Assembly (NCBI GenBank): GCA_951802425.1
Contig: OX637800.1
Coordinates: 3,348,001 to 3,412,000 of the forward strand
Source of the DNA: Clavaria fumosa
Taxonomy: Eukaryota > Basidiomycota > Agaricomycetes > Agaricales > Clavariaceae
Direction of reading: 5' to 3'
DNA: 64,000 bases
Program-made: the position numbers and the translations under genes
Shown here: positions 4,013-9,200 of the stretch, piece after piece
Layout: every line of letters starts with the position of its first letter
How positions within the stretch are numbered: position 1 is the first letter of the stretch
Notes under the pieces: generated by a model
Seen by the model: only the letters and a program-made list of their open reading frames with translations
What the model was told of the DNA's origin: nothing
Database searches by the model: none

Positions 4013-4960
4013 ATGGCTAGGACTAAGCAATCTGCTAAGAGGTCATCTGGTGCTCCTGCTATGAGAGCCACCCTGCCTAAGGACTATCCCAAGTCTGCTG
4101 ATCCTGCTCTTGTTCTGGTAAGCACTGGTGTGTCTGTCCATTCTGATCGTGTTGATCAGGAGATCAGCCTACAGTTCATCTCGCAGACCCAGAGGCAAAT
4201 GATGAGGTGAGTGGACCCCCTTTGGATTTGCCATTGGATCCGACCTGACTGCCCCATAGTGGTGTTCTGGGTGTGGGAATGGCGGGCTGTCTCTAAATTG
4301 CAATTACTGTCCATGAACAATGTGTGACAGGTGCTTGAGTATCCCAGGGGGGCAGCACCTGGTTGCCCAGGCAAACACAAAGTTCATGTGTGTGAGTTGC
4401 CATATCAGGTCTGACACTCAGAACGAGCCCTATCATGTATGGTGTTATTTTCATACCTTGCATGGTAGGAACTGAAATTTTGAGCTCTTAGCCCCTTCAC
4501 CATGATGATCAACCCATCCCACAACTGTTTGGGTTAGTCAAGCCTGCCACACTCCAAGGACACTATGCATGCCAAAACACCGACTCAATCGCCCTTGTCA
4601 ATATTCGCCTCAGCTCTATCACTGAAAGGGGCGATCCTTTCAAGTCTGTGGCAAACACGCTGAGTGGGTGGTACACCCCAGAATCAGAGGGAAGGGAATT
4701 CCTCGAATTAGAAGTCAAGCTGGATGTTATTCCATTGGACATCAAGTTGTTGCAGAAGCACCAGTCGATCTTGGTGAAATTTGTAAAACATATTCAACAG
4801 TAAGTCTTATTTTTTATTTATAAGTCAATTTCTGATGTTTATTACTATTCTCTTATTCAGAAAGAGAGTTATGCATCTCCTTGTCTTTTTATACATGCAT
4901 ACTGACCCAGACAGTGGTGATCCTGTTAGGGTGTCAAGTACTTACCTTACTATGTTTAGC
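4013..4960 (+). CDS. Multi-exon gene with histone-H3-tail-like N-terminus, 3' end lost
   Basis: The ATG at 4013 sits in a good context (ACCATGG). The product begins MARTKQSAKRSSGAPA, which copies the start of histone H3 (ARTKQTARKSTGG), with Arg2 and Lys4 conserved. No histone fold follows. Coding-like sequence resumes at about 4485-4802, an open frame containing TLSGWYTPESEGREF, which ends in a GTAAGT donor; a further exon begins after the CAG at about 4860. Candidate introns start at 4119 (GTAAGC) and near 4208 (GTGAGT). The frame is lost before the transposon that starts at 5199. It is observed that the N-terminus matches H3; that it mimics a chromatin substrate is inference. The exons after 4485 could belong to another gene. 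Confidence 0.45.
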
Positions 4961-5198
4961 CTTTCTCCTTGCCTTGAAGCACCCCAAATATGTGTCTCAT
5001 TAGCCTAACAAGCCTATGGCCTTATCTACATATGCCTATGTCCCAATATCCATGAAAACAACTAATTTTGGTTAGCCATCCAAAGTAAAAACTGCAATAA
5101 TTCTATACTCAAAGAAAGATGGCGCTCTAGAGCAAGAACAAAGAATCGCACAAAGATGCGGTTAATACCGTTCGATTCCTACGCCTTGACAACCCTTA

Positions 5199-5359
5199 TT
5201 GTCCTTTTCAGGAAAGCTTATAAATTATAAAACACGTGACTAGTTCGAGATTCTGATTCTGAAATATCGGCAATGCGATTTCTCGACAATGACTGGGTCA
5301 ATTAGCATGAAATTAAGCGCAAAATGATCGCGCAGACCAGCGCTACCCTGCAAAATTAG
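5199..5359 (+). repeat. Left terminal inverted repeat of the IS630/Tc1 element
   Basis: 161 bp ending in GCAAAATTAG. It pairs with 8834-8994 at about 97 percent identity; three of the four differences are C/T transitions. It contains CACGTG and a GCGCAAAATGATCG segment that may serve as transposase-binding sites (inference). Confidence 0.92.
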
Positions 5360-5461
5360 ACCGATACTACAATAAGGGTTTTTTTTGGGCAATTTCAACA
5401 GTCATGTCGCATCACGCACATCACGTGCATCACAGTTTGACTCTCGCTCAACCACCACACC

Positions 5462-6657
5462 ATGGTTGCAGGAAGCTCGTTGTCCCCAGACATCTGCCGG
5501 ATAGTCATTCGGTTGTCAGCACTCCTTACTCGGGAACAAATTTCGACCTACACAGGGATCTCCATCGCTGCCGTTCACAATGTTCTCAACTATTTCGAGA
5601 AGTTCAAGACGGTCAAATCGGACGAGGGTGGGGAGGAGGAAGGCAGGGAGAGGCCGCGAGGACAGCTGAGAGATGTTGATATACAAGTATGTTATTACAT
5701 TGATCATTCTATTTCTACACTAATTGGAGTACTAGTATCTCATGGAACGTGTTAACCGTTCCCCTGATTTGTACCTCGACGAGCTTCAAGAACTATTGGC
5801 CCGGGACTGTGGGGTCACAACCTCTCAAGCAACTATTTGGAGGAAGCTCAAACGGGCTGGTCTTACCAAAAAGAAAGTAGGTAGTCCATTCCTAAACTCG
5901 TTTTGTCTTTCTAATGCGCTGTTGTAATAATAGCTCTCCCGTGTTGCAGCGGAACGGTCTGAAGAAAAGCGGCTTAGCTACCTGGCCAGAATTGGCGAAT
6001 ATGATCCGGAGCAACTCGTTTTTGTAGATGAGAGTTCTGTCGACCGTCGGACATCCTATCGTGCACGCGCATGGGCTCCACGGGGAACTAAAGCAAAGCA
6101 CAAGGCGTTTTTTGTCCGTGGAAAGCGGTAGGTTGTTGTATTTTAACAATATTATCGGCTGATAAAATTTTATTTGAAGTTTCTCAGTCCTCCCAGCACT
6201 CTCGTTGACCGGAGTTATTTACTGCGACATCATCGAAGGCTCCTTCCGCACCACCACATTTCACAAGTTCATTGATGGCTTGCTGGACTTCATGCAGCCA
6301 TTCCCAGCCCCCAACTCTGTGATAGTCATGGATAATTGTCGTATCCATAAGCACCCGGAGATCCAGAGGCTAATCCAACAACGGTAGGTCATTTTTTGCA
6401 TTCTTTGCCTGTGGTTGCTAATAGTCTATCCTAGGGGAATGCGTTGCATCTTTTTACCGCCCTATTTGCCTGACCTGAACCCCATCGAACTCACCTTTTC
6501 CTTCATGAAGTACCACCTCCGCCGCAACGGCCACTACGTACGAATGGCAATGACAGAGATGGATGACATTGAGACGCACAGGGTGATCCTCGAGGCGCTT
6601 CATGCGGCCACCCCTGATCATGCGTTCAATTGGTACAGGTACTGTGGGTATGTGTAG
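5462..6657 (+). CDS. IS630/Tc1-like DD34E transposase
   Basis: Cuts and rejoins DNA at the element ends. Exons by eye: 5462 to about 5690, then from about 5734, from 5932, from 6187 and from 6435 to the stop at 6657. The introns are about 50 nt, GT-AG. An N-terminal helix-turn-helix region (TREQISTYTGISIAAVHNVLNYF) precedes the catalytic domain. The three acidic residues are visible: Asp in FVDESSVD, Asp in VMDNCRIH, and Glu in PPYLPDLNPIE, with 34 residues between the second and third, as in Tc1-like enzymes. There is no internal stop after splicing. The ATG at 5462 is the first in this frame; an alternative upstream ATG at 5404 is in another frame. The neighbouring cargo gene is on the same strand but has its own spacer. 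Confidence 0.88.
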
Positions 6658-6778
6658 CCTCATTTTTTTTCTTCTGCCTCATTACTTGTGCGTGTCATTG
6701 TACTTTGTGTAATATAAAGTCGCCCGCTTTTCGCCCGCCCTCCCCCCACATTTTTCTTGCTCTGACCTGCCATCCACC

Positions 6779-8741
6779 ATGGCGAAACAGGGCAAAAAGC
6801 TGCCCATAGAAACTCCAGGACCATGTAAACGATGCAGGCGGCGCAAAAAGAAGTGTATTTACTCTCCTGGCTCGTCGATTTGCAAGGATTGCAAGTCCAG
6901 CAAGCCAGAACATGCCTGCATCCCGGCTGACATGAGCAAGCGCCAACCATCACCTGCGCTTCCCACAGCACCTCACTCCAAATCCACGCTCTGCCCGCCT
7001 GCCCCTCACGCTCACACTGAATCCAGCACTGCCCGAAAGCCTGGTCGTCCATCAAAAAAGAACAAACGTGCTTCTCAAGCCAAGCTTTCTATAATTCCTG
7101 AGGTTAGCTCTGACGATTCAGGCGGCACTCCAGGTGATTGACATTGTGGATATATTACACAATCCTAATTTATTCTGCAGATATCATTGATGTCGAGACT
7201 GGAAGTGAAAGGGAGACTTTCGATATAAATGTTGGGGAGGACGAAGAGGAGGAGGAGGTTGAGGAAGAAGAGCTTGAAGAGGACAACGATGACGATGAGG
7301 ACGACGACGACGATGACGAAGACGACGACGACGACGATGAGGATGATGAAGACGAGAGGGAGGGTGTGGGGGTGAGCAACAACAGCCCTGTTGCACCCCC
7401 TCCCTTGCAGAAGATCATCATCCCTCCTACTTCGAGACGACGGACTAAATCTAGGACCAGGGAACACGCCCCAGAGCCAGAGCCTGCATACGACCCCTCT
7501 GCCTGTGGTAAGTTGCTATAGTACTCTACATTTTACACTGACTGACTCTCTTCAGCCTTCTCGGTCAACGCAGTGGTCTTACTCAAAGATGGTGTCAAGT
7601 CCCCCTTTGTCTTCTACTCATCAACAGCGTTTGAAGGACTTCGGAACAAAATTGCGGAGAAGCTGGACTGTTACTCCGTCAAACTGCAATACCGCCTGGA
7701 GAACGACAAGCCAAAGGAAGGATCGACGCTGATTCAGTCTGAGGAAGACTTCATCTACTTCATGGATCGTATGCGGTCGCTCTCGGTTCCTCAAAAGACA
7801 GCGAATGGAAAGCCTTCCTCACAAGCAATCAAGCCATTTCGTGTTATATTTGAAAATGCTAACAAGGCAGCAGATCAACCCAGCGACGGCAACAGCAAAA
7901 GAACTGGAAAGCAGGTAAGCGATATTCGACACTACAGACTCGTATCTAATCATTTTGTAGGCCAGTTCTACCCCGCCGCATTCAGCAGTGAACAACGAGC
8001 CATCAGACAAACTTCAACTGAAAAAGGATGCTGTTATTGCGCAGCTCCTAGAGCGTTACCATTGCGAGCAGCATTCCACTGGGACCGTCACATACTATTG
8101 CTATTGCCCAAGCGGCACACTGTGCTACAGGCTTACTATGTCGGACATAAATTTCTGGGCCCTAGACGTGGTATGTTATCGTATTTCTACTGCTTATTAT
8201 TTGAAATCACGCAGCCCAGCTTTCTAGGGAAACAAATACAACAATAATGGAGAAACTGGAGAAGCTGTTTCTTACCGTAGTCTGTGACACGAAACACCCC
8301 AAGTTGCCGCCGAGTATGCTTCCTTATGTGATAATCCCTGCTACCCATTATCCTTCAGGTCATCTGCCGCCTCCTACCCCTGCAATTATGCCTCCTACTC
8401 CCGCCGTTATGCCTCCTACTCCTGCCGTTACACCTCCTGCCACTCCGAGTCCCTCCTCGCAAACACCATCTCCCTCGGTTTCATACCCTGAGATCATGCC
8501 ATGGCTATCGAGCCTGAACACGCATGCACACCGAAGCAGCCCTCATATCAACTTTTCACTACTCAGCGAACCGCTGCACAGGAACGGCTTCTTTCGTATA
8601 AATCAGCTGGCAAGTGACTTTATTTCGGTTGATAGATTGATGGAATTGCTTCAAGTAAACTACGGTACAGTGATTTTGCTTCTCCAATACACTAAAGAGG
8701 ATGTAGATACATGCCGGATGCAATCCAACATGCTCATGTAG
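6779..8741 (+). CDS. Transposon-borne Zn2Cys6-type zinc-cluster protein
   Basis: A second gene inside the IS630/Tc1 element. Starting at ATG 6779 the product has CKRC-RRRKKK-C, then eight residues, CKDC, eight residues and C: the CX2CX6CX8CX2CX8C spacing of fungal Zn(2)Cys(6) DNA-binding clusters. Next come a basic GRPSKKNKR patch (possible AT-hook or nuclear signal) and a roughly 45-residue run of Asp/Glu. A globular region follows, beginning VVLLKDGVKSPFVFY, whose ubiquitin-fold look suggests a PB1-like domain (weak). The C-terminus has a repeated PPTPAVM proline linker. Introns: 7133-7180, about 7507-7555, 7915-7960, and about 8172-8222 ending CAG before CTTTCT. A role in regulating or targeting the element is possible; a captured host transcription factor is the alternative. 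Confidence 0.7.
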
Positions 8742-8833
8742 GAGTAGGCTGTAGTATGCATGCAGAATCATACCAAATACATTGTGATCATGCCCGACAG
8801 CGAAACCACAAAAAATTAACATTAAAAACTTGA

Positions 8834-8994
8834 CTAATTTTGCGGGGTAGCGCTGGTCTGCACGATCATTTTGCGCTTAATTTCATGCTAATTGACCAAG
8901 TCGTTGTCGAGAAATCGCATTGCCGATATTTCAGAATCAGAATCTCGAACTAGTCACGTGTTTTATAATTTATAAGCTTTCCTGAAAAGGACAA
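8834..8994 (-). repeat. Right terminal inverted repeat of the IS630/Tc1 element
   Basis: 161 bp, the inverse of 5199-5359. The outer end, GGACAA, is followed by the TA target duplication at 8995-8996. Confidence 0.92.
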
Positions 8995-9200
8995 TAATTC
9001 CAAGTTTGCAAAAGGAAATAACAGTTATTGGTTCCTTAAAGTAAATAACATTGATCTAGAAGCTTCTTCTACATAAAGGACAAACAGCGTTGGGATGGCT
9101 AAGAAATCAAAAGATCTGAACAGACAGAAGTGTGGAAGTGGTCAACAGGCTCTTATGTGCAAGTTTGCGAGAGGGCTGGAGCATTTGCGGCTAAGATACA

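Follow-up and report, generated by a model that had tools for sequence, protein, structure and literature searches.

Tc1/mariner elements are the textbook one-protein transposons; Tc1-like elements typically hold a single gene, and several of the group serve as genetic tools that need no partner. Second, non-catalytic proteins are known from cut-and-paste transposons of other superfamilies, such as the Harbinger Myb-like protein, En/Spm TnpA, MuDR MURB and VANDAL VANC, and several of these are DNA-binding. They are not known to be related to the protein described in this paper, which is encoded by the second gene of a Tc1-like transposon in the fungus Clavaria fumosa. The element lies at positions 5199 to 8994 of the window, by which we mean the whole stretch of 64,000 nucleotides that was analyzed (contig OX637800.1 of assembly GCA_951802425.1, positions 3,348,001 to 3,412,000).

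Multi-gene Tc1 elements are already known from ciliates. TBE elements contain a transposase, a small open reading frame (ORF) and a zinc-finger protein, and Tec elements contain three ORFs, one of them on the other strand, between very long terminal inverted repeats (TIRs; PMC7325037). As outlined there, both resemble the window element in having a Tc1-type DD34E transposase and further ORFs within the same TIRs, but their hosts are ciliates and the extra ORF of Tec is a site-specific recombinase (PMC7325037). The excerpts of PMC7325037 that deal with TBE and Tec mention no Zn2Cys6, PB1 or SAM domain, and the comparison is by description only. Tc1-OP1 of the yeast Ogataea is described as 5,659 bp long with 169-bp TIRs and an extra unidentified protein part (PMC9977792). 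It is similar to our element as a large fungal Tc1 with an additional protein part, yet in Tc1-OP1 this part shares one ORF with the transposase, whereas the window has a separate gene (PMC9977792). In fungi, TET/JBP genes are carried by Dileera, Kyakuja, Zisupton, hAT, Harbinger, IS3EU, EnSpm, Plavaka and other transposons (PMC12730594). These too are conserved accessory genes presumed useful to the element, but the accessory is a dioxygenase and not a PB1/zinc-cluster protein, and the main text of PMC12730594 uses neither of the words mariner and Tc1. A limited literature search found no report of the two-gene family described here, which is weak evidence of novelty. To our knowledge, a PB1 domain in a transposon-encoded protein is not a known theme.

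The original prediction of an IS630/Tc1 transposon with near-perfect 161-bp TIRs and TA duplications proved exact in its coordinates. The element (plus strand) is 3,796 bp long, both of its ends start with TTGTCCTTTTCAGG, and TA stands on each side (5197 to 5198 on the left, 8995 to 8996 on the right). The left TIR (5199 to 5359, plus strand) and its partner on the right (8834 to 8994, minus strand) are 97.5% identical over 161 bp. A search of the genome (48.76 Mb, 17 contigs) with the left-flank repeat gave 40 matches, the window's own counted in. In all four of the other copies of this repeat that were read CCCTTAATTCC is uninterrupted, and at the same site the window reads CCCTTA up to the element and TAATTCC after it. 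From these four empty sites and the TA flanks it follows that both genes moved jointly as one unit; the whole two-gene unit is an exact insertion at TA. Among the element families described below, TA was found on both sides in eight of nine elements examined (L010 has TG on one side); in family 3, two copies have it at either end and a third has it at the single end that was read. The surroundings are themselves a dispersed repeat (window 4923 to 5198 and beyond 8997), with about 20 genome copies at 92% identity or more.

The transposase gene (5462 to 6657, plus strand) is a spliced model of 328 amino acids with four introns (exons 5462-5686, 5736-5876, 5934-6127, 6180-6383 and 6435-6657). Its product matches Pfam DDE_3 (E=1.5e-28) and the NCBIfam IS630 model NF033545 (157.6 bits, cut-off 100; the NCBIfam comparison covered the transposase only). 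As counted in the translation, 34 residues separate the last Asp from the Glu, and the enzyme is therefore of the DD34E type. By its transposase, TIRs and TA flanks the element is a Tc1-like member of IS630/Tc1/mariner. Tc1-like elements typically measure 1.3-2.5 kb (PMC8533490); with 3.8 kb and two genes the window element departs from this one-gene format, which is a typical and not a defining feature. The transposase had been called intact-looking, and it does have the DD34E residues and no nonsense codon in the model, but it carries a private missense change in the conserved motif preceding the catalytic Glu that is absent from 12 other transposase models.

The second gene (6779 to 8741, plus strand) starts 121 bp downstream of the transposase gene and on the same strand. 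Its spliced model, backed by homologues and by the dN/dS values given below, has 590 amino acids in five exons (6779-7133, 7181-7507, 7556-7914, 7961-8170 and 8220-8741); an in-frame sixth candidate intron (8314-8358) may be retained. A five-exon gene within the TIRs and the lack of nonsense codons in both genes had been predicted, and both hold in these gene models. From the N-terminal onward the protein shows, all encoded on the plus strand, a cysteine cluster of Zn2Cys6 spacing (CX2CX6CX8CX2CX8C; 6824 to 6919), a basic stretch, an acidic Asp/Glu tract (approximate limits 7236 to 7361), a PB1-like domain (7558 to 7885), a conserved C-x2-H...C...W motif (8055 to 8170), a proline-rich linker and a helical C-terminal domain, possibly of a SAM/HhH-like fold (8481 to 8738). 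The C-x2-H...C...W motif may be a zinc site, and its C155, H158, C167 and W186 are invariant in six alignment rows.

Profile searches gave a mixed outcome for these domains. Against Pfam Zn_clus (cut-off 21) the window protein scores 10.9 bits as a whole and 15.9 bits with its N-terminus alone, both below the cut-off, and the N-terminus of the family 2 homologue L022 scores 25.3 bits, above it. The spacing fits the predicted Zn2Cys6 pattern, the profile scores are divided between the window protein and this homologue, and the cluster is the variable part of the clade. PB1 reaches 13.5 bits in Pfam, below its cut-off of 23.6, though the best match of the predicted fold of this region is to PB1 domains. 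The PB1-like region that had been proposed is therefore retained as a predicted fold, and the acidic tract proposed with it can be read directly in the sequence. Apart from Zn_clus in the L022 N-terminus, no Pfam family passes its cut-off in the second protein, and Fungal_trans, the middle homology domain of classical zinc-cluster regulators, gave no match at E<=1 in the 590 amino acids. Not all fungal Zn2Cys6 transcription factors have Fungal_trans.

The two-gene unit is not restricted to the window. A TIR search of the genome gave 38 matches, and both genes were found together at no fewer than 18 loci, at least three in the window group, six among its relatives (family 1), four in family 2, three in family 3 and two in family 4. 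Since the pair recurs in four families between the same kind of ends, it is more than chance. The window group has two other copies, L009 (98.6% identical to the window element over the full length) and L010 (98.8%), both with open genes. The family 1 relatives L011, L012, L013 and L020 have both genes in unchanged order, with transposases 71-78% and second proteins 58-65% identical (the L020 second gene was modeled from residue 232 only); L019 and L021 have both genes, split up by insertions. Family 2 (L022, L023, L024 and the insertion-split L032/L033) has TIRs of about 215 bp (99% identical in L022, 98% in L023, shortened at one end in L024), with transposases 55-58% and second proteins 32-34% identical to those of the window. 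In family 4 (contigs C10 and C3) the genes are convergent and the inverted repeats measure about 200-280 bp at 90-93%; the transposase and second protein are 43% and 22% identical to those of the window. The second gene could be modeled only roughly in families 2 to 4.

Family 3 elements (on contigs C3, C5 and C6) are 6.72 kb long with TIRs of about 316 bp at 94%, and the second gene stands at the opposite end and on the opposite strand; identity to the window is 46% for the transposase and 25% for the second protein. The three copies (C3:1447450-1454170, L040+L025; C5:1383248-1389970, L026+L041; C6:1892434 onward, L027) are 99.4-99.98% identical over the compared stretches, which indicates that these two-gene units moved recently. 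In the C5 copy, which was read, fragments of RPB1 (the largest subunit of RNA polymerase II) and of a TPR gene lie between the transposase and the second gene. RPB1 matches in this family are to domain 4 (E 4.4e-30) and domain 6 (E 1.1e-37), together with the TPR piece, and show host genes taken up by a Tc1 element, apparently in recent times. A family 3-like transposase fragment (83-84%) is also present at seven closely similar places (C1:118080, C2:19664, C4:76419, C4:4477062, C5:66701, C11:2677415 and C12:69454), several of them near contig ends, and it looks like a transposase piece carried by subtelomeric duplications. Pairs of gene-less 430-440-bp elements with window-like ends lie about 5-6 kb apart at C8:58382-64297 and C10:75371-82142, possibly as a duplicated block. 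The same genome also holds a 1.64-kb unit in two copies at 99.5% (L061/L062) with a Tc1-like transposase frame.

The two genes appear to share a history. The four introns of the transposase agree in position and phase across 9/9 copies checked from families 1 to 3 (the L020 model has three introns only). In the second gene four introns agree in 5/5 family 1 copies checked, with a fifth intron of the L013 model in the optional region, and in families 2 and 3 the positions agree by eye, in a crude alignment with frameshifts there. Separate trees of the transposase (8 rows) and of the second protein (10 rows) both split families 3 and 4 from families 1 and 2, a split at which long branches meet according to a program warning, and both part family 2 from the window family. 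Within the window family L012 joins L013 in the second-gene tree, and the transposase fork is open. With its intron positions shared and its branching largely concordant with that of the transposase, the second gene looks old in the lineage. The zinc-cluster rows form one group in both trees (6 of the 8 rows at 100/99, 7 of the 10 rows at 95/94). A pattern scan found the cysteine cluster in 6/6 family 1 and 2 elements scanned, and none in one family 3 stretch, two family 4 stretches and the upstream stretch of L030. Families 1 and 2 have head-to-tail genes with the cluster, whereas families 3 and 4 have convergent genes without it. As the zinc cluster varies across families, the shared core consists of the PB1-like domain, the C-H-C motif and the helical end. 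Either a single inversion or two acquisitions could account for the differing gene orientation; a common core and concordant trees fit the inversion without proving it.

Relatives also occur beyond this genome. We found 386 for the transposase at E<=0.001, and Amanita, Gymnopilus and Mycena are among the named sources of the 120 listed. A 50-row tree (12 of our own and 38 of the listed proteins) shows the outside relatives interleaved with the families of this genome, and the metagenomic transposase P0001 falls within the window family. Residues 226-590 of the window second protein, used as the query, gave no homologue at E<=0.001. A six-row family alignment as the query gave at least nine second-protein relatives at E<=0.01 (P0121-P0129; 7,996 candidates scored), of which P0121 and P0122 are of the window type and P0123-P0128 resemble family 3 by eye.

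In the own-genome searches, which were a first look with lower-bound counts, no clear host homologue of the second gene was found outside repeats. The exceptions are scattered fragments and one divergent group (L030/L031), about 30% identical, at four places (C3:225741-226906 and on C7, C4 and C2; two were fetched). The two copies that were compared belong to a duplicated block that exceeds 13.7 kb and by eye has long terminal repeat (LTR) retrotransposon genes among its ORFs. In this block the genome searches list no transposase match of the clade, and no zinc cluster was found upstream. At C3:221154-222209, beside retrotransposon genes, an ORF has a Zn2Cys6-like cysteine cluster and by eye is unrelated to the window protein.

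Selection was assessed by the ratio of nonsynonymous to synonymous rates (dN/dS, NG86), with the same codons read in two wrong frames as controls. Between the window group and L012/L013 the transposase has a ratio of 0.10-0.12 and the second gene one of 0.11. For L012-L013, a less saturated pair (dS 0.97), the ratios are 0.15 and 0.23, respectively. The wrong-frame controls are 0.96-1.6 overall and 1.1-1.6 for the second gene. For near-identical family 1 pairs the ratio is unreliable, with few changes that are mostly at CpG. Protein-level constraint on the second gene is thereby shown between family 1 subfamilies, and this gene is free of stops and frameshifts in 6/6 family 1 copies modeled at full length; stops do occur in the transposase, two of them in L011 and one in L012. 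The original prediction would have fallen if all other copies lacked the second gene and selection left no signal here; both genes were found at 18 loci or more, and dN/dS of the second gene is 0.11-0.23 between the subfamilies. Private substitutions in the three near-identical copies are mainly CpG transitions (19/21 in the window element, 19/22 in L009 and 6/7 in L010). We infer that these copies are young yet already decaying at CpG, like methylated DNA, which is a sign of CpG methylation of repeats in Clavaria fumosa.

Taken together, we consider it somewhat probable that the window element is one copy of an old two-gene IS630/Tc1 lineage, and that its second protein is an element-encoded partner that coats or bridges the TIRs and raises transposition, element transcription or both. 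Here the transposase would cut and insert at TA. The N-terminal of the second protein would attach to element DNA, through the zinc cluster in families 1 and 2 and perhaps through a basic stretch, seen by eye, in families 3 and 4. The protein may then self-associate by its PB1 domain and SAM-like end, and in this state it could coat or bridge the long TIRs, leading to more transposition, more element transcription, or both. DNA binding and self-assembly are putative, and a helper or scaffold for transposition and element expression would be the likeliest role. A bolder and distinctly more tentative proposal is that of a two-component Tc1 clade in mushroom-type fungi. The transposase of such a clade would need, or gain much activity from, a PB1/SAM protein evolving along with it. 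This protein would polymerise on the long TIRs and protect or license the element, and its DNA-binding N-terminus, zinc cluster or basic, would be interchangeable from family to family.

Several observations weigh against a partner protein of this kind. Families 3 and 4 have no zinc cluster, which means that the function common to all four families cannot be DNA binding by way of this cluster. For the C-terminal the SAM match is weak, with no Foldseek match at E<=0.001, and in the non-coding parts of the element repeated 8-mers and CGG triplets showed nothing striking, the repeated 8-mers being the TIR itself and a doubled GATTCTGA in each end. The two genes are also not always found together. 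The second gene was undetected beside the transposase at L034, L037, L039 and L050, and likewise at L028/L029 and a third copy on C4, which are one duplicated fossil; L038 has a transposase and only a weak second-gene match about 4 kb off. Conversely, the second gene occurs without a transposase at L035, L036, C3:1807007, C3:1856730 and the four places of the L030/L031 group. Several of the one-gene loci are truncated, fossil or stop-bearing. Elements that have the ends but no genes, about 420-440 bp long, have spread as well. As to constraint, dS is saturated in most cross-subfamily pairs, L012-L013 being the better pair, and the modeled part of the L020 second gene has one stop. In family 2, from rough models with frameshifts, dN/dS is about 1.0 for the second gene and 0.50 for the transposase in L022-L023, and 0.49 and 0.35 in L022-L024, so that clear constraint on the second gene is not seen in these pairs.

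The main rival to a helper or scaffold is that the second protein would serve its own family chiefly as a transcription factor or an antagonist of silencing, with the acidic tract as activator and the zinc cluster as address, and would have no direct part in transposition. Plant VANC, an element-encoded anti-silencing factor, would be its analogue, and an acidic tract beside a zinc cluster is activator-like. The dominance of CpG transitions among private changes fits methylated copies, for which a counter-measure would pay, and TET genes on fungal DNA transposons of other superfamilies are thought to act in this way (PMC12730594). On the other hand, no catalytic domain scores above the Pfam cut-off, the zinc cluster is not conserved across the clade, and CpG decay is present in these copies all the same; we regard this role as possible but doubtful. 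It is also conceivable that a host PB1/SAM or zinc-cluster regulator was captured and is carried as cargo, spread passively or for the benefit of the host. Family 3 does carry host fragments in its RPB1 and TPR pieces, but the second gene occurs in four families, is constrained, and branches largely as the transposase does, and the own-genome searches gave no clear host homologue outside repeats save the exceptions above. Host-gene cargo is thereby weakened as the main account and appears quite improbable, and a recent capture of a host regulator is not supported, the intron positions being shared as well. That a one-gene Tc1 merely lies beside an unrelated gene, by chance or by assembly error, had in its favor only the rarity of two-gene Tc1 elements; it is refuted by the recurrence of the unit, as both genes lie within the same kind of ends across many independent insertions and the empty site could be read directly, and its probability is negligible.

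The lineage has a wider meaning for the Tc1 group. With a second protein retained in four families, this clade departs from the one-protein rule outside the ciliates. It offers a case study of how a simple transposon may gain a helper, an anti-silencing factor or a self-assembling scaffold, for which the 1.6-kb Tc1-like elements of the same genome are a natural control.

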